IMG/VR virus record: IMGVR_UViG_3300042525_000250
Coordinates: 1 to 53,048 of that record
Origin: a virus
Strand: one strand, 5' to 3'
Length of the DNA: 53,048 bases
Below, piece after piece: positions 1,679-30,054 of this stretch. Position 1 is the stretch's first letter. Each line of letters begins with the position of its first letter. A model generated the notes under the pieces. The model ran no database searches. It worked only from the letters and a program-made list of their open reading frames with translations, and was not told the origin of the DNA. The position numbers were made by a program, and so were the translations under genes.

Positions 1679-3175
1679 TTAGTAATATGCATTGCGCCGT
1701 GATGACCGCCCTCTAAACTCTCGCTCTGGTTCTGGCTCATCTAAATTAGTTGAAATAAACCCACCTTTTCTAAACCTTGCCATCGCCATTGACACGGTAT
1801 CCACATAGTCATCGTGTTGCCCTGCGGGAAATGATGCCACCTCTTCGATAACCTCGTCCGCAAATCGTGTGTTCGGTGCCCATACTCTACCAGAGTGAAA
1901 TAAGTCTGCAACCGCATTAAGCCTAGATATCTTATCGTTACCTCTTGTAGGCGTGAATTCCATCACTGGAATACCCATTGCACGTAGCTCATATATAAGT
2001 GGCGCACCAGACGCTTTCTTTTCTACGATTATACTATCAGGTTGCCAATAGTTATAGTCATCCAGCACAACTTGCTTAAGTTCGGGGAACTCATACCGCC
2101 CACGTTTCGCATCAAGCATAATAATGTTAGCCTGCATCACGCCGTTGTCGTTGTCTTGGTAGAACACGCCCCACACAGTACACGCACTATAGTCAGCTCG
2201 CTGTGATTTCTCAAACGCCGTATCCCAAGTCATCAATATAAAGTCTGTAGGTGGTGGGTCTTCTTTAGTCCATTTCTGCCACCACTCTCTTTTAACTATC
2301 GCACCTTCTTCGGAGGTGGGATTCTGCTGATACTGCGCCTGCCACTTGGATATATCAATCGCATCTCGTGTTGCCTCAAGTTCCTCAAGACTCCAGAACT
2401 CAGGCCACAGCGGTTTACCTGAAGGCAATATGGCAGGGAACTCTACCACTCTCCAATTCTCGTTGCCTCTCTGCATCGCCGCTTCAAGCACTTGTCCCGT
2501 CAGGTCTCTTTTTGACCAACGAGTCTGGATGATGATTATGGCTCCGCCAGGCTGGAGACGCTGACGCGGACCAGACGTGTACCACTCGTACACTTTATCG
2601 TAAATCTCAGGGTTACTCGCCGCTATCGCCGCTTCTTGTTCACTGTGCGGGTCGTCAATTATCAGCAGGTCAGCACCTTTACCAGTTACTGCACCCCCTA
2701 CCCCGATAGCAAAATAGTCACCTCCTGCACTGGTGTTCCATCTACCCGCCGCCTTGGAGTCAGACCGCAAACCTACGTTAGGGAACACTTCTTGATACGC
2801 AGGAGAGTCTACTAAGTTACGCACTTTTCGACCAAAACCCACCGCAAGGTCAGCTGTATGCGAGCACTGAATTACTTTTTTATTAGGAAACCGCCCTAAA
2901 AACCAAGCCGGCAGAAGGTACGACCCAAACTCACTCTTTGTATGACGTGGGCCTAAGTTAATAATAAGCCGCTTGCACTCGCCTCTGGCTACGCGCTCAA
3001 ACTCTGAGGCTATCCTTGCATGATGTCGACCATAAATAAAGTCAGGCCACACCGACTGCACAAACGCTAAGAAGTCAGTCTGTGAATTTTCTCGCTCTCT
3101 TCGGCGCTTAAGCTCTCGTACAAGTTGTGCTATACGTTCTTTATCTGATGGAGGCACATGGGCTAACTTACTCAT
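1679..3175 (-). CDS. terL: Terminase large subunit (ATPase/nuclease)
   Basis: 498 residues, a usual TerL length. The N-terminal ATPase has an atypical Walker A (NLGPRHTKSE, about residues 72-81) and a Walker B with catalytic acid (LLIIDDPHSE, about residues 170-179). A coupling-type motif IIIIQTRWS follows. The C-terminal RNase H-like nuclease shows a first Asp in MTWDTAF (about 316) and the closing HDDYVDTVSMAMARF (about 455-469). It drives DNA into the procapsid and cuts the concatemer. The start overlaps the small-terminase end by 8 bp. It belongs to the TerL group with a psiM2 ORF9-like C-terminal domain. Confidence 0.95.
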   Translation of the reverse strand: MSKLAHVPPSDKERIAQLVRELKRRRERENSQTDFLAFVQSVWPDFIYGRHHARIASEFERVARGECKRLIINLGPRHTKSEFGSYLLPAWFLGRFPNKKVIQCSHTADLAVGFGRKVRNLVDSPAYQEVFPNVGLRSDSKAAGRWNTSAGGDYFAIGVGGAVTGKGADLLIIDDPHSEQEAAIAASNPEIYDKVYEWYTSGPRQRLQPGGAIIIIQTRWSKRDLTGQVLEAAMQRGNENWRVVEFPAILPSGKPLWPEFWSLEELEATRDAIDISKWQAQYQQNPTSEEGAIVKREWWQKWTKEDPPPTDFILMTWDTAFEKSQRADYSACTVWGVFYQDNDNGVMQANIIMLDAKRGRYEFPELKQVVLDDYNYWQPDSIIVEKKASGAPLIYELRAMGIPVMEFTPTRGNDKISRLNAVADLFHSGRVWAPNTRFADEVIEEVASFPAGQHDDYVDTVSMAMARFRKGGFISTNLDEPEPEREFRGRSSRRNAYY

Positions 3176-3812
3176 CTTCTACCTCCTCAAATTCCTCTTC
3201 TTCAGCACCACCTTTAAGCTCTTCATCGGAAATCTGCTCGTATTGCACATCAATTGAGCCAAGCTCACCGCCAATAGAGTACGTTGACATCAACTCATTA
3301 AGCTCAGACTCTAGGTCACCTGTCGGTTTATCTGCAGCAGCTACCTCTACTTTTGTCGTAAAGAGCCCAATTTCAGTTACCTTACCTAGCATTTCAACCG
3401 CCTTAATTTGAAGTTTTGGGTCTTCATTTTCGGCAAGTTCAAATAGCTTAAAGAGCACATATTGACGCATCTTGTTTGTAGAATTTGCCAACGTGTAGTC
3501 AAAACGCTTTAAAAGTTTGTCGAGAGCTTTAGCCGCACCGGGTGTGGTAGGTGCAACAGGGGCATCAGGTTGTTCTAAGAAAATGTTCAACGCTTCGTTT
3601 TTTTCTGCATAGGTTAATTGAGGCTCTGGCGGAGGAGGCGGCTCTGGAAATCCTTGCTGCGTTAAAAAATCTTGGTTTTGAAACGCTTCTTTAGCGGAAA
3701 ATCGCCGTTTAACTACCTCATCTGGGGCAAGCTGTTCGTATACAGGGGAAAATTCAAAAGTTTCGTCCTCATCAAATTCCCCGAAATCATCTATTGTGTC
3801 ATTTATCTGCAT
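3168..3812 (-). CDS. Probable terminase small subunit
   Basis: 214 residues, first gene of the leftward packaging operon, directly upstream of TerL with an 8-bp overlap. Both termini are highly acidic (the C-terminus ends EEEEFEEVEDE) and a Pro-rich stretch lies near residue 60. The ordered part is helical: DKLLKRFDYTLANSTNK, RQYVLFKLFELAENEDPK, KAVEMLGKVTEIGLF (about residues 97-153). Small terminases are helical DNA-recognition oligomers, and this core plus position supports the call. No classical HTH is evident by eye, so recognition rests mostly on context. Confidence 0.7.
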   Translation of the reverse strand: MQINDTIDDFGEFDEDETFEFSPVYEQLAPDEVVKRRFSAKEAFQNQDFLTQQGFPEPPPPPEPQLTYAEKNEALNIFLEQPDAPVAPTTPGAAKALDKLLKRFDYTLANSTNKMRQYVLFKLFELAENEDPKLQIKAVEMLGKVTEIGLFTTKVEVAAADKPTGDLESELNELMSTYSIGGELGSIDVQYEQISDEELKGGAEEEEFEEVEDE

Positions 3813-4158
3813 ATTCTTTCTTTGTTATAAACATACATGAGCCTATAGCTTACCTTACTTTGCAAATTTTTTGTGAAAAATTTTTTTGATGGGCGTTTAT
3901 ATAAGTGACGGGGGGTGTTGCTGTGTGACTATGTGAGATTTGAGGTTACTGGATTTATGAAAGTTTAGGGTAATAAGGTGATTTAGTATTTTGGTAAATG
4001 TAGTGGTGCTATGAGCATAATAGTATGTATACGAGATAGTGGAATCCTACTTTTAAAAATTGGGGGGCGGGGTCTGCCGTCATCAATGCTGTCAAATAAT
4101 TGTAAATTTCACTGAAAATAGCCCAAAAACGCTGTTTTTATTCCTATATATAGGGCAA

Positions 4159-4177
4159 AGGATATACCGTATATCCT
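4159..4177. promoter_or_regulatory. 19-bp palindrome, copy 1 (central base C)
   Basis: AGGATATAC-C-GTATATCCT, two 9-base arms around one base. It ends 11 bp upstream of the -35 box at 4189, where an activator would normally bind. It is the only one of the seven copies placed upstream of a predicted promoter. Another palindrome, CCTATATATAGG, ends 5 bp before it. Confidence 0.8.
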
Positions 4178-4188
4178 AAAAATATTAG

Positions 4189-4216
4189 TTGACATTATGG
4201 GATGGGATGGTATAAA
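4189..4216 (+). promoter_or_regulatory. Sigma70-type promoter (early rightward)
   Basis: TTGACA (4189-4194), 16-bp spacer, TATAAA (4211-4216). The decamer TTAGTTGACA is shared with the promoter at 25625. The start of transcription should be about 4223-4225, exactly where a 9-bp hairpin begins. It drives the 222-residue early gene and perhaps the following one, which ends at the terminator near 5280. Confidence 0.75.
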
Positions 4217-4224
4217 CTATAGTC

Positions 4225-4248
4225 CAGTTAAGCAATAACGCTTAACTG
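4225..4248 (+). promoter_or_regulatory. 5'-terminal mRNA hairpin
   Basis: Perfect 9-bp stem, arms CAGTTAAGC and GCTTAACTG with loop AATAAC. It would sit at or within a few bases of the 5' end of the transcript from the 4189 promoter. A second small stem (GGGC / GCCC) follows at once. Such 5' stem-loops can protect mRNA from 5'-end-dependent decay; that role is inferred. Confidence 0.6.
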
Positions 4249-4288
4249 AAGGGCGGCTTTGCCCGTATACATAAACAAGGTGACTGAA

Positions 4289-4957
4289 ATGAAAAATGTT
4301 AAAAGATTAGTTAAGTCTGCAACCACTGCAACCACTGCAACCACTGCAACCAATGAAAATGCTAACGTACAGTTAGCAGATGACATCATGGTATTTGTTG
4401 GATTAGCGTTAGACTACACTCAACATAAAAGTGCAATGCAAGGCGTCAAAATAGCAATGACGCCGCATATCGAACGTTATCGCCAAGCTGGGTACACTAG
4501 CATTAGTGCCGGCGCAAAGGGGCGCAGTAAAAATATTCCTACACCAGCGAATAACGAGTTGCCTTATACGCTTGTTGTGGCGGCATTCGATGCTATGTGT
4601 TCAAAACGCGGTATTGTATACGATAACACTACAAAGTTAGCGGGCGGTAAAACGCAGTGGCAAAATGCTAAGAATCAATTCCTAGCAAGTTTTAAACTTG
4701 CTTTAGATACAGGCGAATGGGACAACAATGTTAGCCGCGCCACTGCAGAGACTACTGCAGAAACTACTGCAGAAACAAAAGAAAAAAGGGGCTCAAAAGA
4801 ACGTAAAGCACCGACTGTTGACAGCGTATCAAAGTCACTGTTAGAAAAGGGCTTAACCACTCAACAGCTCTTAGACGTATTAGCTAAAGTATGCAAGGAG
4901 TGTTCATGCGACCACTGGACTTATAGTGTGGTTAAAACCGACCACCCTAAAAAATAA
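4289..4957 (+). CDS. Early protein of unknown function with two short tandem repeats
   Basis: 222 residues from the ATG at 4289, chosen because AAGGTG lies just upstream; an in-frame upstream start at 4259 has no ribosome site. The N-terminus carries an (ATT)n repeat from a 9-bp DNA unit (ACTGCAACC-type), and residues about 153-163 carry AETTAETTAET from a 12-bp unit. The middle (about 30-145) is a folded-looking domain with IAMTPHIERYRQAGYTSISAG. The C-terminal third is basic, then helical, with a CKECSCDHW cluster. First gene behind the 4189 promoter. The family is not recognised; a DNA-binding or host-takeover role is possible but not shown. Confidence 0.85.
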   Translation: MKNVKRLVKSATTATTATTATNENANVQLADDIMVFVGLALDYTQHKSAMQGVKIAMTPHIERYRQAGYTSISAGAKGRSKNIPTPANNELPYTLVVAAFDAMCSKRGIVYDNTTKLAGGKTQWQNAKNQFLASFKLALDTGEWDNNVSRATAETTAETTAETKEKRGSKERKAPTVDSVSKSLLEKGLTTQQLLDVLAKVCKECSCDHWTYSVVKTDHPKK

Positions 4958-4972
4958 ATAACACATTAGGTT

Positions 4973-4991
4973 AGGATATACCGTATATCCT
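4973..4991. promoter_or_regulatory. 19-bp palindrome, copy 2 (central base C)
   Basis: AGGATATACCGTATATCCT, extended to TTAGG...CCTAA, so 23 bp are symmetrical. It lies in the 69-bp gap between two genes and ends 35 nt before the next start codon. No promoter is visible next to it, so it is probably transcribed as part of the mRNA. Confidence 0.8.
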
Positions 4992-5026
4992 AACCGCCCT
5001 TTAAAATGCACAATAGGACTAAAGCA

Positions 5027-5257
5027 ATGAAGAAATTTAAAATAGCAGTAACCAACTGTAATGGTTGGAACCAAATTGGCTTTATAGCCACAAAAGATGA
5101 CTTTGTGTCATCAAAAGTATTTAGTAGAAGGATTGATGCAGATAACTTTGCTAAAGTCCAGTCCGATTGGAATTCACAATTTGATAATCAAAGGATTGGA
5201 TTTTTAGTTTGTCGTAAGACACCCTGCAAAGGCTGGGTCGTAGTTGCCCAGTTTTAA
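5027..5257 (+). CDS. Small hypothetical protein
   Basis: 76 residues, starting MKKFKIAVTNCNGW. The ATG at 5027 is preferred over one at 5006 because AGGA lies 8 nt before it. The sequence looks like one small alpha/beta domain, with hydrophobic strands FKIAVTN, GFIAT, RIGFLVCRK and a final GWVVVAQF, plus a central helix RIDADNFAKVQSDW. Several phages carry small proteins of this style that read like a strand-helix-strand domain; the family is not recognised. A strong terminator follows, so it closes the first early unit. Confidence 0.8.
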   Translation: MKKFKIAVTNCNGWNQIGFIATKDDFVSSKVFSRRIDADNFAKVQSDWNSQFDNQRIGFLVCRKTPCKGWVVVAQF

Positions 5258-5269
5258 AGGTTAAACAGG

Positions 5270-5293
5270 AAGCCCTCGAAAGAGGGCTTTTTT
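5270..5293 (+). terminator. Rho-independent terminator
   Basis: Arms AAGCCCTC and GAGGGCTT around a GAAA tetraloop, running into six T. It lies 13 nt after the stop of the 76-residue gene, and ends transcription ahead of the repeat-rich non-coding block. Confidence 0.92.
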
Positions 5294-5310
5294 ATTGCCT
5301 AAAATTTATT

Positions 5311-5329
5311 AGGATATACTGTATATCCT
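5311..5329. promoter_or_regulatory. 19-bp palindrome, copy 3 (central base T)
   Basis: AGGATATACTGTATATCCT. The symmetry extends to ATTAGG...CCTAAT, 25 bp in all, the longest of the seven. It lies 18 bp past the terminator T run and 80 bp before copy 4. Confidence 0.8.
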
Positions 5330-5351
5330 AATTGATACTAGTTCCCGTGTT

Positions 5352-5450
5352 GACGGCGAGCTATCGTGGAGTTACTGAGGAGCAAGCAATAGGATATACA
5401 GTATATCCTATGATAACTGTTTCCAGAGGAGACGGCGAGCTATCGTGGAG
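5352..5450 (+). repeat. 20-bp direct repeat, two copies
   Basis: GACGGCGAGCTATCGTGGAG at 5352-5371 and again, identical, at 5431-5450 (79-bp step). Together with palindromes 3 and 4 (80-bp step) it forms a roughly 80-bp composite unit present twice. The sequence between the conserved parts has diverged, so the conserved parts appear to be held by selection. Confidence 0.85.
5391..5409. promoter_or_regulatory. 19-bp palindrome, copy 4 (central base A)
   Basis: AGGATATACAGTATATCCT, symmetrical over 23 bp (ATAGG...CCTAT). It lies between the two copies of the 20-bp direct repeat. Confidence 0.8.
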
Positions 5451-5462
5451 CTGTACAAGATT

Positions 5463-5528
5463 TATGTTACGGTTTACTTGGGACAATTCTTAAGATGTGA
5501 TTGTATGCTACGGTTTACTTGGGACAAT
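5463..5528 (+). repeat. 25-bp direct repeat, two copies, one mismatch
   Basis: Copies at 5463-5487 and 5504-5528, 41 bp apart, each ending ACGGTTTACTTGGGACAAT. They differ only at position 5 (T or C). They follow the 20-bp repeats and precede the A/T tract. Confidence 0.85.
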
Positions 5529-5686
5529 AAAGCTGATTTTAATCGGCGATTTCGCAATGATAGTAGGCATAAGAATTTTTTAAACCCAGCAAATCCGCAG
5601 TGTGTGTTATTACTACTACTACTACTAACTATTATTAAATATATATATAAGAGAGAATATATATATATATATTTATAAGATTTTTG

Positions 5687-5721
5687 TCCCTGTACGACTG
5701 AGCTGACAGGGAGCATTTTTT
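5687..5721 (+). terminator. Possible terminator
   Basis: Arms TCCCTGT and ACAGGGA with a 12-nt loop, followed after GC by a run of six T. It is weaker than the terminator at 5270 because the loop is long and the T run starts 2 nt after the stem. It may instead be part of the repeat block's structure. Confidence 0.4.
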
Positions 5722-5929
5722 CGCTTTTTCGTCCTCTTCCTTTCTCTCTCTTTTCATTTTACGAGATACTATCACAAATCTATGATATCATATCTACAGG
5801 TCGCGGATTTACTGGGCGCAAAAAACGCTCCCACCTTATATAATTGCGAAAACGCCTTTTTTAAATGGTTTGCTCATACCGTCACCTACAACTTATAACC
5901 CATACAATTCACCACATGAGGATGCAAAA

Positions 5930-7129
5930 ATGGACGAAAAACTCGCTTTGCAAGAGGCAGAACGCCTTAACAGACTATACAAAACCGAATATAAAGCCTA
6001 TCTACGAGCATTGCATGGACGGCAAACTAGACTAGAGAACCGCTTGGCAAACAAACTTGCACGAGAAGTAGCGCATAAAGATAAGACTAATGCCACTTTT
6101 GATAGGCTTTATGCAATGACCCACTACACTTATGAGGTAGAGGGTAAGAAGAGTATGCGAGTAATAGATGTACTAAAACCGCAGGTAAAGAAAATACTGG
6201 AAGGTTATACAGCGTATAACCTTCCAAAAGAGCCGCGCCCAGTGCTAACACAGGCGATAGTGCAGGCTAAGTACTTCTATGACCCAGCTACGGGCGAGAT
6301 AACCTACAACGAAGGGCGATGCATGGATAAAAGCGCAGTACACACGCCCCCACCTGTAAAGATGCCATACAAGCAGAACCTAACACTAAATCGCTTGCCA
6401 CTAAGAGCTAAAGGTAAAATACCAGTACACACTGGGTTTACATCCTACAATACAGATGCCTATGCACTACTTGATGATGACGTAAGGCTACAATGCATAA
6501 AACGCTATTACCTAGAGAGAAACCCAGACTTAACAGCTCTCAATGCAACAGTACGCAAGACGTACTATATAAAGGCAAATCCACGCACACCGCGTGTGTA
6601 CATAAACAAGAACTCGTACTTACCGCAGGCGATAGCCTATCTATATATGGGTGCAGGCGGTCGCTTTGACTACACAGGCGGGATAGATAACATCAAGCGC
6701 ATACAAGAAGAAATAACGTGCGAACCGTACGGTACGCGCAACATCAACCCAAAGACAAACAAACCCTGTGCATACCCATGCAGGGACGGCAATTCACTCA
6801 ACTATGCATGGGATAACATAAAGCCAGAGCCACTGGCTACAGCGGCACTAACACGCTCTCCCGATGCCAAGCGAAAGCCCATAAACAGAGGTGATGCACA
6901 CCTGCCAGATACATACAAGCGGCGCATGACGTACAGCACAGAGCGGAACGTGCGTATAGTGGGGGATAAGTACACCGTGCATAGCATGGGGACGGGCAAT
7001 AAAACCACCGTGTGTGATTCGTGGGAGGATGCAGTGACTGTATTTAATGCACAGCTCAAGAGAGTTAAAGGGGCAAAAACAAAACTTGCCAATGGCAACA
7101 TTATGGTCACAACGGAGATAAAGAAATGA
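5930..7129 (+). CDS. Basic protein of unknown function, possible HNH-like relative
   Basis: 399 residues from the ATG at 5930, chosen for GAGG 8 nt upstream; an in-frame TTG at 5870 is less likely. The N-terminal 70 residues are helical and highly charged. Near residue 135 is YFYDPATGEITYN, close to the FxYDPxTGxL stretch that precedes many phage HNH nuclease domains. A region ending DGNSLNYAWDNIKPEP (about residues 285-305) looks like the asparagine part of an HNH fold, but the usual paired histidines are not evident. The C-terminus (VGDKYTVHSMGTGNKTTVCDSWEDAVTVFN) is reminiscent of small DNA-binding AP2-like domains. It overlaps the next gene by ATGA. Confidence 0.8.
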   Translation: MDEKLALQEAERLNRLYKTEYKAYLRALHGRQTRLENRLANKLAREVAHKDKTNATFDRLYAMTHYTYEVEGKKSMRVIDVLKPQVKKILEGYTAYNLPKEPRPVLTQAIVQAKYFYDPATGEITYNEGRCMDKSAVHTPPPVKMPYKQNLTLNRLPLRAKGKIPVHTGFTSYNTDAYALLDDDVRLQCIKRYYLERNPDLTALNATVRKTYYIKANPRTPRVYINKNSYLPQAIAYLYMGAGGRFDYTGGIDNIKRIQEEITCEPYGTRNINPKTNKPCAYPCRDGNSLNYAWDNIKPEPLATAALTRSPDAKRKPINRGDAHLPDTYKRRMTYSTERNVRIVGDKYTVHSMGTGNKTTVCDSWEDAVTVFNAQLKRVKGAKTKLANGNIMVTTEIKK

Positions 7130-7707
7130 GTAAGGATAACAAAGCACGCGAAGCACTCAAAGAACTAGGCATTAGCTTAGAGAAGACAATAAACTGGGTT
7201 AAGGCATCTAAAGAGCAGATGAACGTCATAGCGTGTACACGCAGTAAGAACAGCTCAGTGGAGAATATAGAGGGTGATGCAGACCATGTGTATATCCCTG
7301 TGTGCGGAAATATAGAGGTTAAGACGTTTTTGGAAGTGAATAGAGAAGAGATGGAGATGATGTGGACAAACGAGAAGGTCGATGGGGCGGAGGATGCGTA
7401 CACTACGTTATATATGAAACACATCCCGTTTGGTGGGACTGCGGAGATAGCATGGTCGATAGAGCTGTTGCGTGACTTGGTATCACCGTATTACTTAGTA
7501 AGGCTTGGACGGATGCAGGGCACACTAGCTTCAATGCGCATGACAACAGAGCAGATGCAAGCGGCGTTTATTCTGCAACCTGTGTTTGCTGAGGTGTCAA
7601 ACTTGCTGGTGTGCAAACACTTTCCGAATTTAATATTAAGTCAGTATAACAAGGCGATAACTGTTCCTAAAGAAGAGGAGCAAAAACAACAACATACCGT
7701 CCCATAA
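7126..7707 (+). CDS. Hypothetical protein
   Basis: 193 residues, start ATG at 7126 coupled to the upstream stop through ATGA. Helical N-terminus (DNKAREALKELGISLEKTINWVKASKEQM), a central strand-rich part with YIPVCGNIEVKTFLEV, then a long helical segment SIELLRDLVSPYYLVRLGRMQG. The C-terminal tail is charged. I do not recognise the family. The shared expression with the preceding 399-residue protein suggests the two act together. The next promoter starts 3 nt after its stop. Confidence 0.82.
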   Translation: MSKDNKAREALKELGISLEKTINWVKASKEQMNVIACTRSKNSSVENIEGDADHVYIPVCGNIEVKTFLEVNREEMEMMWTNEKVDGAEDAYTTLYMKHIPFGGTAEIAWSIELLRDLVSPYYLVRLGRMQGTLASMRMTTEQMQAAFILQPVFAEVSNLLVCKHFPNLILSQYNKAITVPKEEEQKQQHTVP

Positions 7708-7710
7708 CGC

Positions 7711-7739
7711 TTGACTTAGGGTATAAAAGGGTGTATAAT
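7711..7739 (+). promoter_or_regulatory. Sigma70 promoter (near consensus)
   Basis: TTGACT (7711-7716), 17-bp spacer, TATAAT (7734-7739), continuing ATGTACCA. It is a sister of the promoter at 8102: both have GCTTGAC at the -35 and TATAATATGTACCA at the -10. The transcript should begin near 7746, just before a 6-bp hairpin (GAGATG / CATCTC, 7749-7767). Confidence 0.88.
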
Positions 7740-7779
7740 ATGTACCAAGAGATGAGAAAAGCATCTCGAAACAAAACAA

Positions 7780-7798
7780 AGGATATACGGTATATCCT
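7780..7798. promoter_or_regulatory. 19-bp palindrome, copy 5 (central base G)
   Basis: AGGATATACGGTATATCCT, about 35 nt into the transcript from the 7711 promoter and ending 24 nt before the next ATG. In this position it could act as a roadblock operator or as an RNA hairpin in the leader. Confidence 0.8.
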
Positions 7799-7822
7799 AA
7801 TAACAATAACGGAGTAAACGAC

Positions 7823-7981
7823 ATGAGCGACATATTCACATTCCAAGAGTTTAAAGACAGCATGACAGAGGAAGAGGTTAAAGGCTGGCATTACGAAGGT
7901 ATCAGCATATCTGAGCTGTACCACGAGTATTTGCTATCGCTCGACCCACCATGCAATTACCGCCCAGAGTGGGCGTATTAA
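7823..7981 (+). CDS. Small acidic protein
   Basis: 52 residues, MSDIFTFQEFKDSMTEEEVK to a final RPEWAY. ACGGAG lies about 8 nt before the ATG, and a near-consensus promoter stands 84 bp upstream, so it is a monocistronic early message or the lead gene of one. The product is acidic and probably helical (FQEFKDSMTEEEVKGWHYEG, then SELYHEYLLSL). The family is not recognised. Small acidic early proteins in phages are often inhibitors or DNA mimics; nothing here proves that. Confidence 0.7.
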   Translation: MSDIFTFQEFKDSMTEEEVKGWHYEGISISELYHEYLLSLDPPCNYRPEWAY

Positions 7982-8026
7982 AATAATGACGTAAGCCCTA
8001 TCTAGTAGTGGGTTAAAACACTAGAG

Positions 8027-8078
8027 GGTAGAGGAGTGGGGGTCACCATGTAAAGTTCAAAAACCTGCTTGCTCTACC
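8027..8078 (+). other. Possible structured RNA element
   Basis: In the 253-bp gap between two small genes, arms GGTAGAG (8027-8033) and CTCTACC (8072-8078) pair perfectly around 38 nt. Just upstream is an imperfect stem (CCCT and CTAGT with ACTAGAGGG, about 7996-8028). An ATG followed at once by TAA (8048-8053) has a purine-rich site before it. It is too short for a tRNA and lacks a T-arm. A small RNA or leader structure is possible. Confidence 0.3.
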
Positions 8079-8101
8079 ACTTATAAATCAAACACTTACG
8101 C

Positions 8102-8130
8102 TTGACATAGCCTACCAATAGGCGTATAAT
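8102..8130 (+). promoter_or_regulatory. Sigma70 promoter (full consensus)
   Basis: TTGACA (8102-8107), 17-bp spacer, TATAAT (8125-8130), continuing ATGTACCA as in the 7711 promoter. Transcription should start near 8137. A 5-bp hairpin (GTCCC / GGGAC, 8152-8166) and palindrome copy 6 follow in the leader. Confidence 0.92.
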
Positions 8131-8182
8131 ATGTACCAGATGTAAAGAGTCGTCCCCTCAAGGGACTGCAAACTGAATCGGT

Positions 8183-8201
8183 AGGATATACGGTATATCC
8201 T
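8183..8201. promoter_or_regulatory. 19-bp palindrome, copy 6 (central base G)
   Basis: AGGATATACGGTATATCCT with flanking T and A (21 bp symmetrical). It lies about 46 nt into the transcript from the 8102 promoter and 33 nt before the ATG at 8235, the same arrangement as copy 5. Confidence 0.8.
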
Positions 8202-8234
8202 ATTAAACCAACACCGAAACATGAGGATACAACA

Positions 8235-8405
8235 ATGAACATATATTCAAAAGATAGTGACGGCGGTATCACGCACTGCTGGTCATTCAGTACACGGTAT
8301 CAAGCTGAGAAGTTTTTAAGAGACCTGCGAAGAGCAGGACGTATGACTCACTGGTACATCATATCAAGTCTTGATTACGACAAAGCTAAACGGAGATACG
8401 CATGA
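8235..8405 (+). CDS. Small hypothetical protein
   Basis: 56 residues, MNIYSKDSDGGITHCWSF to a basic C-terminus ending KAKRRYA. The site CATGAGGAT before the ATG matches that before the gene at 5930. A strand-helix-strand layout is likely: HCWSFSTRYQAEKFLRDLRRAG, then THWYIISSLD. This resembles small phage proteins that read like one half of a double-stranded-RNA-binding-type fold, but I cannot assign it. It overlaps the next gene by ATGA and is cotranscribed with it. Confidence 0.75.
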   Translation: MNIYSKDSDGGITHCWSFSTRYQAEKFLRDLRRAGRMTHWYIISSLDYDKAKRRYA

Positions 8406-8989
8406 ACCACGTTCATTTAACAAAAGGTAGTGGCAAATTAGCTGGTATCACCAGCATCAATACACCTACATCAACCAACCCATTCTGCCAATCCATGCAG
8501 AAAACAGACAGCGTGTGCAAGTCATGCTACGCACAACGCTATGAGAAGCTACGCCCTAATGTAGTGACAGCGTTCGAGCGCAACAAGTTTTTATCCGAGA
8601 GAGAGTTACTACCTCAAGAGATACCCGCTATCAATGAACAGATAGCACGGTTCGCAAGTTACGGCGAACTCATTAACATGATGCACTTTATTAACCTATT
8701 GCGCATTGCGTTAGCTAACCCGCGAACCATCTTCACACTGTGGACTAAACGCTATCGTATTGTACAGCGCGTGCTTAAGCTAATGGGTAAACCCGACAAT
8801 CTTATCCTTATCTATAGCAGTCCTATAGTAGGTAAGGTGAGCGCACTACCTAAAGGCTTTGACAAAGTATTCACTGCGTTTGCTAAAGGTACGGACACTA
8901 CTGACATTAACTGTCACGGGGCGTGCAACGACTGTCGTTTGTGCTACTCACACAACAACACAACATTCATCAATGAGATTATTAAATAG
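8402..8989 (+). CDS. Gp88-like cysteine-rich protein
   Basis: 195 residues. Cysteines cluster at CQSMQKTDSVCKSCYAQRYE near the N-terminus (about residues 26-43) and at CHGACNDCRLCYS near the C-terminus (about 173-185). Between them are VVTAFERNKFLSE and ARFASYGELIN. This pattern matches the phage 'gene product 88' family as I remember it, proteins often labelled radical-SAM-like because of the CxxCYA motif. The cysteines could bind an iron-sulfur cluster or zinc. Biochemical role is unknown. Its stop codon lies inside palindrome copy 7. Confidence 0.7.
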   Translation: MNHVHLTKGSGKLAGITSINTPTSTNPFCQSMQKTDSVCKSCYAQRYEKLRPNVVTAFERNKFLSERELLPQEIPAINEQIARFASYGELINMMHFINLLRIALANPRTIFTLWTKRYRIVQRVLKLMGKPDNLILIYSSPIVGKVSALPKGFDKVFTAFAKGTDTTDINCHGACNDCRLCYSHNNTTFINEIIK

Positions 8990-9006
8990 GATATACGGTA
9001 TATCCT
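8988..9006. promoter_or_regulatory. 19-bp palindrome, copy 7 (central base G)
   Basis: AGGATATACGGTATATCCT. The first two bases are the last two of the TAG stop of the preceding gene, and the site ends 19 nt before the next ATG. A regulatory element pushed against a stop codon in so compact a genome suggests its place between genes matters. Confidence 0.8.
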
Positions 9007-9025
9007 AATCAACTGGAGAACTATC

Positions 9026-9877
9026 ATGACATTATCAACATCAGCAATGCTTTGCACCTTAAACATCTCAATCTGGACAGCACGCAAGCTCGACAAGAAA
9101 GTATCACAGGATGTGGACACAGCTAACTCAACTCGCACCAAAGCAGGTAACTATCACAAGAACCTGCTGGCAGGTGACGACTCACTTGCCAAGATACAAA
9201 AGATTGCGAGCGAGGCTCGCACCTACCACTCACGGTACACATCGCCTTGGAATGACAACGGTCAGCGTCTACTGACCACCGCTTACTTCCTTGAGTACAA
9301 GCGTACGATGGGTGACTACGAGCGCAAGTTCTGGGATGAGGTCGATGCGTTCCTACCTCAGTACGGTCTTAAGATATCAGCGGCGGCGTTTCAATTAGGT
9401 AAGCTGTTTGACCGTGACGAGTACCCCGAAGAAGATAAAGTCCGCAGTAAGTTTAGCTTTGGGATTAACTTCACCCCAGTACCAGAGTCAGGTGACTTCC
9501 GTGTAGACATTCAATCAGAGGAGGTAGCTGAGTTACGTCGTCAGTACGATGAGATGTATGAGTACAACATCGCTAAGGTTAATCGTGATGCGTGGGATAG
9601 GCTGTATGACACGCTTACCCAACTGAGCTTTGGCTTGCGCACTAACGATGATGGTACAAAGGGTAAGATATACGACAGCGTGTATTCATCAGCGTCCGAG
9701 CTGTGCGAGTTACTGCGTCACCTCAATATAAACAATGACACGCAACTGGAGGATATGCGCCAGCGTCTCGAAGATACCATCATGGGTATTGATACGAAGG
9801 ACATAAAACAGAGCGACTTCATGCGCTCACAAATCAAAAAAGATGTCGATGCTATGCTCGACAAGTGGAACGACTAG
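9026..9877 (+). CDS. DUF3150-like protein, partner of MoxR/VWA genes
   Basis: 283 residues. Start ATG at 9026 behind TGGAGAACTATC, a site form repeated before several genes here. N-terminal SIWTARKLDKKVSQDV, then KNLLAGDDSLAKIQKIASEARTYHSRYTSPW, then a helical C-terminal half with DAWDRLYDTLTQLSFGL. This is how I recall DUF3150 proteins, which in proteobacteria and phages sit beside MoxR-type ATPases and VWA proteins; that arrangement is found here. Function of the family is not established. Probably the first gene of the module that runs to 14209. Confidence 0.7.
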   Translation: MTLSTSAMLCTLNISIWTARKLDKKVSQDVDTANSTRTKAGNYHKNLLAGDDSLAKIQKIASEARTYHSRYTSPWNDNGQRLLTTAYFLEYKRTMGDYERKFWDEVDAFLPQYGLKISAAAFQLGKLFDRDEYPEEDKVRSKFSFGINFTPVPESGDFRVDIQSEEVAELRRQYDEMYEYNIAKVNRDAWDRLYDTLTQLSFGLRTNDDGTKGKIYDSVYSSASELCELLRHLNINNDTQLEDMRQRLEDTIMGIDTKDIKQSDFMRSQIKKDVDAMLDKWND

Positions 9878-9886
9878 GAGAACATC

Positions 9887-10282
9887 ATGGGATACCGTAG
9901 CACAGTAGCATTTGTGATTAGTTTTGAAACAAGAGAACAACTAGACAACTATCTAGCACCACGTCTGCTAGATGAGAACCTTAAGAACGATAGAGAAAAC
10001 TTCTCGCGTATCGCTTGGGATGATGCGTCTGTTATGTATTACTCGGAAGAAATAAAGTGGTATGACGAGTACGAAGATGTCAGAGCTCTAACTAAGTTAT
10101 ACAAGGGTGTTATCGAGGCGGGAGGTGCATACCGTTTCATCCGTGTGGGTGAGGACGATAGAGATATAGACGATGAGTCGGGCGACTCAGATAATGTAGA
10201 GTCTTTCTATGATGACTTCTACCCAGTAACAACAATACAAACCCCAACCACTATCAAATTAACATTCGGAGAAGAACAATGA
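9887..10282 (+). CDS. Hypothetical phage protein
   Basis: 131 residues, opening MGYRSTVAFVISFETREQLD, a start shared with a widespread group of small phage proteins I have no function for. The rest is acidic: SEEIKWYDEYEDVRALTKLYK and a stretch RVGEDDRDIDDESGDSDN. Predicted as a small alpha/beta domain with an acidic tail. It sits between the DUF3150-like gene (9-nt gap) and the AAA+ gene (ATGA overlap), so it is coexpressed with both and may be part of the same complex. Confidence 0.8.
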   Translation: MGYRSTVAFVISFETREQLDNYLAPRLLDENLKNDRENFSRIAWDDASVMYYSEEIKWYDEYEDVRALTKLYKGVIEAGGAYRFIRVGEDDRDIDDESGDSDNVESFYDDFYPVTTIQTPTTIKLTFGEEQ

Positions 10283-11349
10283 AACCATACAGCTCAATTA
10301 CTATGCAAAACGCAATCGACCTTATCAACGCAATCGGCGACACGACCACAGTCTTGGTACAGGGCGAGATGGGGATAGGCAAGTCATCTATTCTTAAATC
10401 CCTACAGCAACAGCACCCCGACCATGTGGTGTGCTATGTAGACATCACGACTAAGGATGTTGGTGACTTCCTTGTACCACAGGTGCGCCAGCTAGACGGT
10501 ACGTCTGTCTGCTCATTCATACCCAACGAGGAGTTTGGCTTTCACCTCAACAAGCCTGTGATTATTATGCTTGATGAGATAGGCAAGGCTAGTAAGTCTG
10601 TGATGAATGCGTGTCTTAGACTCATGCTCGAGCGTAAGCTCGGCACACATAGTTTGCCCGAAGGCTCTATAGTATTTGCTACTACTAACCTATCAGCAGA
10701 GGGTATCGGTGATAATCTGCCACCTCATGCAAGAAACCGTGTGGACGTGGTTAAGGTACGCAAACCAACCTCAGAAGAGTGGCGTCTTGGCTTTGCTATG
10801 GGTGCAGGTGTTGACCCAGTGGTTATTGCGACAGCTAACGAGTACCCTGCTATGTTCGCATCGTTCGAAGACTACGAGAAACCAACTCAGAACGAGTACA
10901 TCTACGACCCACGAGTACCACGAGCGGCGTTCGTTACACCACGCAGTATGGAAGCGGCAAGTAATATCCTCAAGCGTTGCCGTCACCTACCAGAAGACGT
11001 GCTATACCATGCGCTTATTGGTGTGATTGGTGAGCGTGCGACTATGGATATGATGAACATCCTCAAGTTAGATAACACCATGCCCGCATGGCGTGAGATT
11101 GTATCTGAGCCAACTACTACACAAGTACCAAGTAACGGCGCATCAGTCTGTCTTATAGTCTCTAAGGCTTTGCATAACGTAGAGAAAGATACGTTCGATG
11201 CGTGGATGACGTACTTAAACCGTATGACCCGTGAGGCGCAAGCTATGTTCGCTATGTCAGTGATGAGCGGTAAATCCCCCAAGCGTGACATCGCAGTACG
11301 CAACAAATCATTCACCTCATGGTGTGTAACTAACGGCTACTTATTCTAG
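10279..11349 (+). CDS. MoxR-type AAA+ ATPase
   Basis: 356 residues. Walker A GEMGIGKS (29-36), Walker B VIIMLDE (94-100), a sensor-type stretch FATTNLSAEGIGDNLPPHARNR ending in the arginine-finger region (about 134-155). MoxR ATPases form hexamers that remodel partner proteins, usually working with a VWA-domain protein encoded beside them, as here. It overlaps the preceding gene by ATGA and stands 9 nt before the VWA gene. Target in the infected cell is unknown. Confidence 0.9.
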   Translation: MKPYSSITMQNAIDLINAIGDTTTVLVQGEMGIGKSSILKSLQQQHPDHVVCYVDITTKDVGDFLVPQVRQLDGTSVCSFIPNEEFGFHLNKPVIIMLDEIGKASKSVMNACLRLMLERKLGTHSLPEGSIVFATTNLSAEGIGDNLPPHARNRVDVVKVRKPTSEEWRLGFAMGAGVDPVVIATANEYPAMFASFEDYEKPTQNEYIYDPRVPRAAFVTPRSMEAASNILKRCRHLPEDVLYHALIGVIGERATMDMMNILKLDNTMPAWREIVSEPTTTQVPSNGASVCLIVSKALHNVEKDTFDAWMTYLNRMTREAQAMFAMSVMSGKSPKRDIAVRNKSFTSWCVTNGYLF

Positions 11350-11358
11350 GAGATAATC

Positions 11359-12528
11359 ATGAAAGCAGAAGACCGCATACTCAAGGCGCACATTGCGCTG
11401 ATGCAAGACACCCGCACCTTAGCCTACTCTGGCATTATCATGGTGGGCAAAGCAGTCATTACCGATGACATAGACACAGCCGCTACCAATGGACGTGATG
11501 TGTTTTATGGTCGTGCGTTTATTGACAGCTTAACTGACCAAGAGATACGCGGTCTTGTACTGCATGAAGCCAAGCACAAACTCTACCAGCACTTCTTTAT
11601 CTGGCAGAAACTATTCGAGGAAGACCACGAGCTTACGAATGCCGCGTGTGACTTTGTGATTAACCTCGAGATACTAGACATTGATAGGGGCGGTAGCTTT
11701 ATTAAGTTGCCCGAGTGTGGGTGTATCGATGAGCAGTATCGTGGTATGAATACCGCAGAGGTATACGCTAAACTCAAGGAGCAGTATGGTGATAAGCAAA
11801 GCCGTGCGAGTAAGGGTGGTAAAGGATTACCCGAAGGGTTAGATGAACATCAGTGGCAAGATGCCGTGTCGCTGTCGCCCGAAGAGAGGGAACAGTTATC
11901 TCGTGAAATCGATAGCGCAGTCCGCACTGGCGCACTGCTGGCAGGTAAACAAGGCGGTGATATTGACCGCAACTTCGAAGCTCTTATGGAATCGAAAGTA
12001 GACTGGCGTGAGCAACTGCGTGAGTTCGTATCATCAACGTGCGCTGGCAAAGGTGACAGCACATGGGCAAAACCAAGTAGACGCTGGCTTTCTCAAGATA
12101 TCTATATGCCCAGTCAGATTAGCGAAACAATAGGCTCTATATGTGTTGCGATTGATACATCGGGTTCTATTGATGACGAGGCGATTACCAAAGCCTTGAG
12201 TGAGGTGGTAGCTATATGCGACAATACAACTCCAGAGAAGGTTGACCTTCTCTACTGGGATACAGATGTTGCATCTCATGAGCAGTACCGCGAGGATAAC
12301 TACGCGGGTCTAGTTAACTCTACTAAACCTGCTGGCGGTGGTGGTACAGACGTAGGCTGTGTGATGCAGTATATAGATGACAACAAGCTCAAGCCAGAGT
12401 GTACGATTATTATCACTGACGGTTACACGGACTTTCCTAGAGAGCACCCTACGTACCCTGTGATATGGGTTATTGTTGGCGGTAGTAATGTCGTGCCACC
12501 GTTCGGTAGTGTGATTAGGTTAGATTAG
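11359..12528 (+). CDS. Putative metallopeptidase with C-terminal VWA domain
   Basis: 389 residues. N-terminal domain carries HEAKH (residues 69-73), an HExxH zinc-protease motif, within LVLHEAKHKLYQHF. The C-terminal von Willebrand A domain has the metal-site motif DTSGS (266-270) in ICVAIDTSGSIDD, a later GGGGTDVG and TIIITDGYTDFP. This layout is that of DUF2201-type proteins that pair with MoxR ATPases. Co-occurrence with the ATPase next door is strong support. Whether the protease is active, and on what, cannot be told from sequence. Six paralogous small genes follow 2 nt after its stop. Confidence 0.9.
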   Translation: MKAEDRILKAHIALMQDTRTLAYSGIIMVGKAVITDDIDTAATNGRDVFYGRAFIDSLTDQEIRGLVLHEAKHKLYQHFFIWQKLFEEDHELTNAACDFVINLEILDIDRGGSFIKLPECGCIDEQYRGMNTAEVYAKLKEQYGDKQSRASKGGKGLPEGLDEHQWQDAVSLSPEEREQLSREIDSAVRTGALLAGKQGGDIDRNFEALMESKVDWREQLREFVSSTCAGKGDSTWAKPSRRWLSQDIYMPSQISETIGSICVAIDTSGSIDDEAITKALSEVVAICDNTTPEKVDLLYWDTDVASHEQYREDNYAGLVNSTKPAGGGGTDVGCVMQYIDDNKLKPECTIIITDGYTDFPREHPTYPVIWVIVGGSNVVPPFGSVIRLD

Positions 12529-14215: not shown

Positions 14216-14239
14216 GATTCCGTACGCAAGTACGGAATC
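14216..14239 (+). promoter_or_regulatory. Strong intercistronic hairpin with GNRA loop
   Basis: Perfect 10-bp arms GATTCCGTAC and GTACGGAATC closed by GCAA, placed 6 nt after the last paralogue's stop. No T run follows, so it is not a standard intrinsic terminator. It may protect the 3' end of a processed array mRNA, or mark an RNase cleavage site. About 100 nt without a clear gene follow it. Confidence 0.6.
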
Positions 14240-27186: not shown

Positions 27187-27214
27187 AAGGGGCGGTACTA
27201 TCCGCCCCTTTTTT
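27187..27214 (+). terminator. Rho-independent terminator
   Basis: Arms AAGGGGCGG and CCGCCCCTT (9 bp) with a 6-nt loop TACTAT, running into six T. It begins 15 nt after the stop of the ssDNA-binding-like gene and ends the transcript from 25625. Confidence 0.95.
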
Positions 27215-27236
27215 GTCTTTATTTTTAGGTGTAATC

Positions 27237-30026
27237 ATGAACAGGATAGATTTTTTAAAGACAGTGTTAGCAAAAGGCGGTATGTATTGCGCTGTAGGTA
27301 TAATAAATAAGAAAGTTAACCAAGTATTTTTTAATACGATGGAAGAGTTAACACAATGGTCAGACGTTCAAACCTTAGCTGGCGTAAATGTTTTCTTTGC
27401 AGTAGCTACCTATCACACAGCTATTAGTAGAAGTGCTAAAAATACTAAGCTGTTTAAATCTTTATGGCTTGATTTAGATATAGGTAAAGGAACTGCGTAT
27501 GAATCGCAGGTTACAGGTATCGCGGCACTTAAAAATTTTTGTGTTGCGGCTTCCCTTCCCAAACCAACCATAGTGTCATCAGGATATGGGTTGCACGTTT
27601 ACTGGGCGTTTAAAGAAGAAGTTGATTATAACGAATGGAAACCCTTAGCTACCGCATTAGCGGATAAGATAACAGCCGAGAATTTTAATGTTAAAGATTT
27701 AGGTGTAACAACAGACGGTGCTCGTATCTTGCGTGTACCTAACACAAAAAACTATAAGTATAGTGATGCAGTAAATGTTGAAATAATAACGCTTTCTGCG
27801 CCTACACCTATACAAACTTTAAAAGACATACTGTCTCCAAAAGATACATTAACCCCCTTAGCTAAAGCAGAGCTTGCCGCTTCTAATGTAACGCTCAACG
27901 ATACAACTCGTGCACTGCTAGGAAACATTATCTACAAGTTCTCACGGGTTATGCATAAAAGCCTTAGTAATAACGGCTGTGCGCAGATGGCTCATATATA
28001 CCTAAACCAAAACGATATCCCAGAACCTCTTTGGAGAGCGGGGCTTTCTATTGCTCAGTTCTGTGTAGATAAAGAAACAGCAATACATAAGATATCTCAA
28101 GCACACGATGAGTATTGCCCTGCTGAGACTGAAAGAAAAGCATGGCTTATTAAAGGTCCGCATCTATGTGAAACATTTAATCACATCAACCCCGATATGT
28201 GCGTGGGGTGTAAACACGCTGGGGTTATAACAACGCCCTTAATGCTAGGTAGAGATATACTAGAAGCTTCACCCTCAGATAATATTGTTACGGCAGAGAG
28301 TAAAGAGCTTGGCACAATCGACATAGAGATACCTCAATACCCATACCCATACACAAGAGGACCCAATGGTGGTGTATATGTTAAGAGCGTACTTGACTCT
28401 GGTGATGGTGAAGAGACTGATAAAGTATTAGTCTATGAAAACGATTTTTATGTAGTAGGCAGACGCAATGACCCAAACGATGGTGAAGTGTTGCATATGC
28501 GTCTTATTAGACCCTATGACGGTGTAAGTGATTTTATCGCTCCTCTTGCAACTGTAACAGCGGGAGACAAATGCCGTGAGTTCCTATCCCATCGAGGGGT
28601 CGCCGCTCATGCAACTCAAATGAAACTAATTATGGCATACCTAGTAGCGTGGACTAAACATTTGCAAAATACAACTAAGGCAGAGCAGGTTAGAGTACAG
28701 TTTGGCTGGACACCCGATGACGCGGCATTTGTTATTGGTTCAAGAGAGTTTGTGAAAGGTGCATCTCCTAAGTTCAGCCCTCCTTCAGCAACAACGCAGG
28801 AGGTAGTTAAGAAGTACAATAAAGAAGGTTCTATTGATGAATGGTCTAGAATTGTCAACACTTATGCTCTTCCTGGAAATGAGGTACGTGCCTTCGGTTT
28901 GTTTTTGAGTTTAGGTGCTCCGATGTTTAAGTTCTTCTCTTTAGGTGGGGCTATTTTGCATCTGACTAACGCATCATCTGGTGTGGGTAAAACAACTGTA
29001 CAGTATGTAGCAAGTAGTGTGTGGGGGCATCCTAAAGACACGGTGCTTACCAATGAAGATAAGCTATTAGCTAAATACCACCGTATGGGGGTTATTCAAA
29101 ATCTTATTCTATGCATTGACGAGGTGACCAACTTACCGCCTGATGAAGTGAGTGATTTGGCATTTGGTATTACCAATGGTCGAGGTAGAAACCGTATGAG
29201 TTCTTCGGCTAACGTAGAGCGAGTTAATAACACTACATGGTCGATGCCTTGCATTACATCTGGTAACAACAGTTTGCATGAGGTGCTTCAGTCCCATAAG
29301 GCTGACCCAGAAGGCGAGGTACTTCGTATCTTAGAGCTTGAGGTAGTACGTGCAGACTATATGACTAAACAAGATACTGACCAGTTATTCAGTAGAGACC
29401 TATTTAAAAATTATGGGTTTGCTGGAGATGTTATTGCACAGGCTATTTTAGACAACCTAGACTTATCAATTAAAGACTTGTTTGCTATCCAACGTGATTT
29501 TGATACTAGAGCTAACCTATCTCAAAGAGACCGATATTATTCTGCACTTATTGCAACGGCTATATTTGGCGGCAAACTTGCAAATGAGCTGGGTATTATT
29601 AACATTCCCGTTGAGCCTGTCATAGATTATCTAGTTAAAAAGATAGGACATAAGGCTACCGTTATAAAAGTACAGGAAGATAAAGCATCAGCTAATTTAG
29701 GTTTGTTTATGTCAGAGCATATGCAAAACCAACTTGTGATAAATAATAAAATACCTGTCATACCAGGAGTACTGGGCGTACCTATTGAAACCCCTCGCGG
29801 CGCACTAGTAATACGCAGAGAACCAGACACTAATAGAGCGTATATTATCTCGTCAGTAATTAAAGCATGGTGTGCAAAGAAGCAAATATCCTATAAATGT
29901 ATGGTAGCTGACCTAAAGAAAATAGGTATCTTAGTAGATACAACTAAGGTTAGGATGTCGGCTGGGACAGTGCAGGATAGCCCTGCTGTTATGGCACTCG
30001 TCTTGGATACTACTCAAATGGGATAA
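27237..30026 (+). CDS. Primase-helicase fusion (AEP primase + DUF927-type ATPase)
   Basis: 929 residues from ATG 27237; an in-frame upstream start lies in the terminator T run and is unlikely. The N-terminal archaeo-eukaryotic primase domain has LDLDIG (Asp79, Asp81), SSGYGLHVYW (114-123) and GARILRVPNTKNYK. Around 310-330 is a cysteine/His set, HLCETFNHINPDMCVGCKHAG, typical of a zinc-binding linker. The C-terminal DUF927-like helicase has Walker A SSGVGKTT (580-587) and Walker B LILCIDE (623-629). It unwinds DNA and makes primers for the polymerase at 17095. The promoter was not identified, so read-through or an unseen promoter is needed. Confidence 0.92.
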   Translation: MNRIDFLKTVLAKGGMYCAVGIINKKVNQVFFNTMEELTQWSDVQTLAGVNVFFAVATYHTAISRSAKNTKLFKSLWLDLDIGKGTAYESQVTGIAALKNFCVAASLPKPTIVSSGYGLHVYWAFKEEVDYNEWKPLATALADKITAENFNVKDLGVTTDGARILRVPNTKNYKYSDAVNVEIITLSAPTPIQTLKDILSPKDTLTPLAKAELAASNVTLNDTTRALLGNIIYKFSRVMHKSLSNNGCAQMAHIYLNQNDIPEPLWRAGLSIAQFCVDKETAIHKISQAHDEYCPAETERKAWLIKGPHLCETFNHINPDMCVGCKHAGVITTPLMLGRDILEASPSDNIVTAESKELGTIDIEIPQYPYPYTRGPNGGVYVKSVLDSGDGEETDKVLVYENDFYVVGRRNDPNDGEVLHMRLIRPYDGVSDFIAPLATVTAGDKCREFLSHRGVAAHATQMKLIMAYLVAWTKHLQNTTKAEQVRVQFGWTPDDAAFVIGSREFVKGASPKFSPPSATTQEVVKKYNKEGSIDEWSRIVNTYALPGNEVRAFGLFLSLGAPMFKFFSLGGAILHLTNASSGVGKTTVQYVASSVWGHPKDTVLTNEDKLLAKYHRMGVIQNLILCIDEVTNLPPDEVSDLAFGITNGRGRNRMSSSANVERVNNTTWSMPCITSGNNSLHEVLQSHKADPEGEVLRILELEVVRADYMTKQDTDQLFSRDLFKNYGFAGDVIAQAILDNLDLSIKDLFAIQRDFDTRANLSQRDRYYSALIATAIFGGKLANELGIINIPVEPVIDYLVKKIGHKATVIKVQEDKASANLGLFMSEHMQNQLVINNKIPVIPGVLGVPIETPRGALVIRREPDTNRAYIISSVIKAWCAKKQISYKCMVADLKKIGILVDTTKVRMSAGTVQDSPAVMALVLDTTQMG

Positions 30027-30054
30027 AAAAGGGGGCTTAACGCCCCCTCTCTTT
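30025..30054. terminator. Bidirectional terminator between convergent transcripts
   Basis: Arms AGGGGGC and GCCCCCT (7 bp, 30030-30036 and 30042-30048) with loop TTAAC. AAAAAA on the left gives a T run for the minus strand, and CTCTTTT on the right serves the plus strand less well. It separates the primase-helicase gene from the late gene block. Confidence 0.88.

Follow-up and report, generated by a model that had tools for sequence, protein, structure and literature searches.

Iteron-type theta origins, for example the ori of phage lambda and the origins of iteron plasmids, have direct repeats beside an A/T-rich region, and palindromic origins of the herpes simplex oriL/oriS type have inverted arms around an A/T-rich centre. 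We analysed a viral DNA of 53,048 bases, the whole IMG/VR record IMGVR_UViG_3300042525_000250 (the window), and describe a gene-free block at positions 5258–5929 whose best reading, and a probable one, is that of the replication origin of this phage. Like theta origins, the block has non-coding direct repeats, here a pair, next to a stretch that qualifies as A/T-rich by its richness only, and it has an inverted repeat and lies in the early region. It differs from them in that there are two repeats per block, no initiator gene is recognised and the A/T tract lies between the arms of the inverted repeat. The inverted arms around an A/T-rich centre are also reminiscent of herpes oriL/oriS, but the arms of the block are longer, imperfect and not conserved in sequence, and host and proteins are unrelated.

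Two more systems need to be considered. Origins of the BUS/DnaA-trio type have triplets 3′-GAT-5′ or 3′-AAT-5′ beside an A/T-rich stretch (PMC8287927). Compared with this description, the block likewise has at least three NAN trios next to A/T-rich DNA. However, the DnaA box TTATNCACA is absent at up to one mismatch from the whole block of the window, and so from the 16 bp around the trios, as well as from the blocks of the relatives L014, L020, L021, L024, L027 and L029. Unlike in the origins described there, the polarity is not fixed, the triplet and A/T element being inverted in L019, L020, L021 and L025 (L088 and L091 share that sequence). Because of the missing boxes and the inverted polarity in some lineages we do not assign the block to the DnaA-trio origins. 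The palindromes of the window, on the other hand, recall the stoperators of Cluster A mycobacteriophages, which according to PMC6550527 are many copies of a short site distributed over the genome with a consensus varying by phage. In our relatives as well, many copies of one short site stand at gene or operon starts and the consensus differs by phage; in contrast to the stoperators as described there, the site is palindromic and occurs in both orientations and in fewer copies, and no repressor is recognised.

By their terminases (50–56%) the nearest named phages are Planktothrix phage Pag-Yong1, the Pelagibacter phages HTVC027P/HTVC023P and Phage DSL-LC04. In the literature examined we found no annotated origin for the phages studied here, which by terminase are relatives of freshwater cyanophage and pelagiphage groups. 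A term search of the main text of PMC9599517 gave no mention of an origin or of the palindromes, and searches for DnaA-trio together with phage and for origin/iteron gave nothing on this group as far as titles and the beginnings of abstracts tell. Neither promoter–stem-loop cassettes of T4-type phages nor a paper on Pag-Yong1 were found in the literature searched. Nucleotide searches of positions 4900–12000 against phages (blastn) and of F7, the protein encoded directly downstream of the block, against phage records (tblastn) gave no match.

The block and its repeats

The window has no end repeats. Its left end carries portal and terminase genes on the minus strand, among them the large subunit (1679–3175) and the likely small subunit (3168–3812; assigned by position, without profile match). 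Early genes follow on the plus strand from ∼4.2 to 30 kb, with products such as an AAA ATPase, a DUF2201/VWA protein, a family A DNA polymerase, an SNF2-type helicase and a DUF927 primase–helicase-like protein; the replication proteins, including the candidate primase–helicase (27213–30026), sit at 17–30 kb. The virion genes are on the right side on the minus strand.

All repeats, palindromes, the TAC run and the A/T tract listed in an earlier note on this DNA are present at the positions given there, and to these a long inverted repeat enclosing the tract, omitted from that note, has to be added. The block begins with a terminator-like hairpin on the plus strand (5271–5297, AAGCCCTC GAAA GAGGGCTTTTTTA with a T run), which judged from the sequence and from aligned relatives would end the upstream operon. 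A terminator scanner listed its counterparts in L020 and L025 and not the hairpin of the window, and for the window no good F7 promoter was listed either. Two iteron-like plus-strand repeats of 35 nt (5337–5371 and 5416–5450, 83%) contain exact 20-bp repeats at 5352 and 5431 with a step of 79 bp. Two palindromes lie here at a step of 80 bp, and both steps look like a single tandem duplication of palindrome plus repeat. Two plus-strand 25-bp repeats (5463–5487 and 5504–5528, 96%, 41-bp step) are confined, among the relatives compared, to the lineage of the window and L005. Then come the left arm of the inverted repeat (5536–5598), the triplet run TTATTACTACTACTACTACTA on the plus strand (5607–5627, with the TAC run at 5611–5625), the A/T tract (5626–5685, core ∼5636–5676) and the right arm (5803–5866). 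The 60-mer at 5626, with 55 of 60 positions A or T, is the most A/T-rich of the whole 53 kb (runner-up 48), and we propose the tract as unwinding element. The earlier note also had the plus-strand genes start at the block; this is nearly so, but two plus-strand ORFs (4289–4957 and 5006/5027–5257) come first.

A dispersed set of palindromes

Seven copies of the palindrome TAGGATATACNGTATATCCTA are found in the window, within the stretch from 4.1 to 9.0 kb and nowhere else; the closest further match differs from it by six mismatches. The copies are located at 4158–4178 (one mismatch), 4972–4992, 5309–5331 (core 5310–5330), 5389–5411 (core 5390–5410), 7779–7799 (one mismatch), 8182–8202 and 8987–9007. 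The third and fourth are the operator-like pair within the block, and the last stands between the gene 8402–8989 and the gene starting at 9026. The fifth and sixth lie between a sigma70-like promoter on the plus strand (TTGACT-17-TATAAT at 7711–7739, 11/12; TTGACA-17-TATAAT at 8102–8130, 12/12) and a start codon. Promoter-like sites as such are no more frequent in this region than in shuffles (10 against a mean of 13.7), and only the high score of the best ones stands out. Within F7 a diverged palindrome, TGGAAGGTTATAC AGC GTATAACCTTCCA, is present at 6198–6226, where L005 has the standard palindrome. The 7-mer of the palindrome arm forms seven hairpin sites in the window and at most one in five shuffles. 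As the seven copies are spread over several kilobases and two are at promoters outside the block, they are no marker of the block; the earlier idea that the palindromes are iterons of the origin has to be given up, since they belong to a dispersed, lineage-specific set of sites.

Such lineage-specific sets are directly observed. Relatives have a different palindrome, again repeated within each genome and at corresponding gaps before genes, among others TACCCGTAACNGTTACGGGTA in L012 and L017, ATTCCGTACNNNNGTACGGAAT in L014–L016, CTAAGTTAG-N6-CTAACTTAG together with GTAGTATNNNATACTAC in L020, L021 and L025, GTAGGACNNNGTCCTAC in L029 and TAATCGTTACNNGTAACGAATA in L038. Pag-Yong1 (OL906435, L072) has 14 copies of the 15-bp palindrome GGTTCAGNCTGAACC in the 41 kb examined, mostly in gaps before early genes. 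A 7-base arm occurs in at least three hairpin sites in 25 of 40 loci, in two sites in 4 and in none in 11, with shuffles giving at most one site and once two. When palindromes were searched in the relatives with seeds picked by hand from the prior palindrome and arm surveys, 99 of 162 copies (25 loci) were followed within 75 nt by a start codon that has a purine-rich site, compared with 10–45% of random positions depending on the locus, and a copy within the F7 coding region was found in 13 of the 16 F7-bearing loci searched. A single copy of the exact palindrome in L007, in a coding region of this unrelated phage, was taken as chance.

Operators of a separate regulon that changes fast are the most likely reading of the palindromes. 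A competing reading, which we put at roughly one chance in four, is that they act as RNA hairpins in mRNA leaders and not as DNA operators. The many copies close before start codons would suit hairpins in leaders, as would the two window copies downstream of sigma70-like promoters and the variants within one genome that have one or two central bases and symmetric changes (L005, L024). Against RNA hairpins, flanks and centres can point either way with respect to the genes (L037, L038, L039), with the centre GCAA in L014 reading TTGC at the corresponding site of L015, and the symmetry extends to the exact centre, a position that cannot be paired in an RNA hairpin. Both orientations and the symmetry up to the centre favour recognition of double-stranded DNA. 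Moreover, the copies of each lineage have one sequence in common, as sequence recognition predicts.

In L020, two unlike palindromes are adjacent upstream of the same genes at 8042–8090, 8489–8542, 9878–9921 and 10935–10984, and similar adjacent pairs are seen in L021, L025, L088 and L091; this gives the impression of operons open to control by either of two regulators. The window itself has a lone palindrome of the L014 type, GATTCCGTACGCAAGTACGGAATC, at 14216–14239, identical to the site at 14632 in L014 and with a counterpart of inverted centre in L015. It resembles an orphan that stayed behind when the left early module was exchanged.

Candidate regulators

Two genes next to the block are candidates for the regulator of the palindrome set, F7 (5930–7129, plus strand) and the first plus-strand gene (4289–4957), which may be a regulator cassette; F7 may alternatively be an origin protein. 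The profile phrog_99, an HNH endonuclease, matches 10 of 16 F7 family members weakly (best 6.8e-5) and does not match the copy of the window. The predicted structure of F7, of moderate confidence (pLDDT 67.7), gave no Foldseek match. An initiator, which the earlier note suggested looking for among these two neighbours, was not recognised there; neither has an initiator-like profile. The 4289–4957 gene encodes low-complexity peptide repeats, TAT near its start and TAE further on.

Exchanges between relatives are informative about the two genes. The F7 of L020 is 80–98% identical to those of L021 and L025 at its ends and 25–48% in the middle, and the palindrome inside F7 is switched too, the L020 site lying within or near the exchanged segment. 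The natural recombinant L091 combines the first gene of L021 (96%) and CTAAGTTAG sites with an F7 whose middle is L020-like and a GTAGTAT site. The sites thus travel with both the F7 and the 4289-type cassettes, so that either protein could be the regulator. As the L020 site lies in or near the exchanged segment and the L091 sites follow both cassettes, we do not accept F7 as a proven palindrome-binding protein. The paired palindromes, with the GTAGTAT type next to the CTAAGTTAG type, and L091 together provide a ready-made experiment on how regulator and site change together.

Conservation of the layout

The relatives were collected with F7 and with the 9026–9877 protein as queries, and they are not all independent: the window, L005, L006 and L008 are one lineage, L014–L016, L047, L049 and L085 are another, and L024 and L026 apparently belong together. 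In F7-bearing relatives whose sequence includes the block, the gene-free block, the repeat pair, the triplet run and the A/T tract recur, and the aligned relatives have them in the order terminator-like hairpin, direct-repeat pair, triplet run, A/T tract, F7. This conservation of the layout is a direct observation. It is kept in many distant relatives although their sequences differ, and for this reason the block looks like an origin.

The direct-repeat pair is found in most lineages, as TGATACCTGTTTC...AAGACGGTGAG in L012 and L014, as two copies of TTGAAACCTGTT in L020, L021 and L025 and as two copies of TTATGACTGCTCCCTTTGTGACGGTGAGCATGG in L029. The repeats at 5337–5371 and 5416–5450 are by comparison with these pairs the version of the window, and the earlier description of the 20-bp repeats as iterons may stand insofar as they are iteron-like members of a conserved pair; there are only two copies. 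TAC or TTA runs occupy the place of the triplet run. Loci without F7 have a comparable order after the gene family F35, namely a terminator followed by short tandem ACTATCAT-type repeats and an A/T-rich stretch. At the place in question, Pag-Yong1, HTVC027P/HTVC023P and DSL-LC04 have no triplet run. DSL-LC04 has a gene-free gap that holds both the top A/T 60-mer and the top inverted repeat of the 34 kb examined. An inverted repeat of HTVC023P was discounted because it overlaps A/T-rich annotated coding DNA (100 of 150).

The tract before F7 is the top A/T 60-mer in all 19 loci of the first set that contain the block. A later F7-alignment search yielded eight previously unused loci (L074, L085, L086, L088, L090, L091, L094 and L097), which served as a held-out set; their F7 identity goes down to ∼30%. 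The tract is again the top A/T 60-mer in each of them, and all eight have an arm 7-mer that recurs in at least two hairpin sites.

The long inverted repeat

In the window the arms pair over 63 nt with 46 of 63 identical (73%). The score of 26.5 compares with a maximum of 14.0 in 300 shuffles and of 21.0 at 345 control centres, placed every 150 bp in the window and measured in the same way. The inverted repeat was listed for 25 loci and the control test was run on 24 of them, L013 being omitted as its block is near the end of the sequence; in 16 of the 24 the repeat of the block scores higher than every control in that locus, for example with scores of 71 in L019, 39 in L024 and 31.5 in both L020 and L037. 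Among 2567 pooled controls five score at least 19 and none reaches 24. The L014-type lineage (L014, L015, L016, L047, L049, L085) lacks the repeat, and it is weak in L030, L032 and L033, where the controls are not exceeded. It exceeds the controls in seven of the eight held-out loci, with a slight advantage for the block, which is the best of about ten adjacent centres while each control is one centre; the failure is L085, a locus of the L014 type. In most lineages the arms are ∼60–140 bp long and ∼200 bp or more apart, and the arm sequence varies by lineage while the complementarity is retained.

A paired structure directly before a gene could also be a structured non-coding RNA or a long leader controlling F7, and in fact folding of the block is stronger than that of shuffled sequences, both in the window (z −3.49) and in many relatives, and nearly all have a long gap before F7. 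We nevertheless consider this explanation improbable. The arm mismatches of 16 loci comprise 42 G.T and 54 A.C among 220, so there is no excess of G.T on the plus strand and no clear selection for wobble pairs on either strand, which argues for symmetry of the DNA and not for an RNA helix. In addition, in 13 of 16 blocks the fold of the minus strand is at least as good, and the block has no Rfam match. The block of L020 and L025 is bracketed by a terminator and by a sigma70-like promoter, the latter immediately ahead of the F7 start, so that F7 has a promoter-like site to itself and the block need not be an mRNA leader.

Somewhat less probable still is that the block is a mere spacer with promoters and microsatellite-like tracts and without a role in replication. 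It does contain promoter-like sites, and triplet and A/T tracts are prone to mutation. A spacer, however, would hardly account for a tract at the same place in eight of eight and an inverted repeat in seven of eight held-out loci in which F7 has diverged to ∼30% identity.

Complete and nearly complete records

The window was compared with five records of 62–66 kb. In five of these six complete or nearly complete records the tract is the top A/T 60-mer of the record (exception G005), and in five the block has the top inverted repeat (exception G001). The minimum of the cumulative GC skew, which had been proposed as a check of the origin, is 1.2–3.5 kb from the block in all six. In the window it is at 3402, 2.25 kb from the tract and beside the switch between early and late strands, a result compatible with an origin in the block and not decisive. 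Gene strand switches are near the block in all six records, and as the skew follows the change of gene strand, it does not separate replication from transcription. Least probable of all, and by a little only, is that the block is the packaging site (pac or cos) of the terminase encoded 1.4–3.6 kb to the left: both terminase genes are nearby and packaging sites often have repeats and bends, but early genes lie between terminase and block, no record examined has a genome end at the block (ends of metagenome contigs say little here), and an A/T tract with triplet run and a flanking long inverted repeat is to our knowledge unusual for a pac site.

Proposed start of replication

We infer origin function of the block, with unwinding and the binding of an initiator, and binding of a regulator to the palindromes. 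Replication might be initiated as follows. The terminator-like hairpin would stop upstream transcription, and a putative initiator of the phage would bind the direct-repeat pair. The triplet run and the A/T tract beside the repeats would then unwind, and the inverted repeat would give the open region a two-fold symmetry or be extruded as a hairpin. The open region would allow the primase–helicase of the phage (candidate 27213–30026) to load, and replication would proceed away from the block, approximately following the two arms of divergent genes. Separately, a DNA-binding protein of the phage, F7 or the 4289–4957 candidate, would probably control early operons through the operator set of seven palindromes, two of which happen to be in the block.

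More tentatively, and with the odds somewhat against the whole combination, the group may share a class of origin that is kept by its geometry and not by its sequence: a core of triplets plus A/T tract enclosed in an inverted repeat of 60–140 bp whose arms are replaced jointly by lineage, with an adjoining repeat pair. On this origin an operator set would be superposed, its palindrome varying by phage, some operons having two palindromes and possibly two regulators. Repeats, an A/T tract and an inverted repeat are a known kind of arrangement; unusual are an inverted repeat conserved independently of its sequence and palindromes side by side. The earlier proposal of an origin candidate is supported by the comparative layout and not by the palindromes. 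A block recognisable by layout only offers a way to map origins in phages from metagenomes and to test how their replication starts.

Two observations concern other parts of the window. On the minus strand, positions 30054–35423 encode a protein of 1789 amino acids, parts of which match DarB-like antirestriction and virion endolysin families. A second long gene-free stretch is found between the terminase and the first plus-strand gene (3813–4257); it contains the palindrome AAATTTTTTGTGAAAAATTT at 3864–3883, which is also present in L005 and, slightly altered, in L012.
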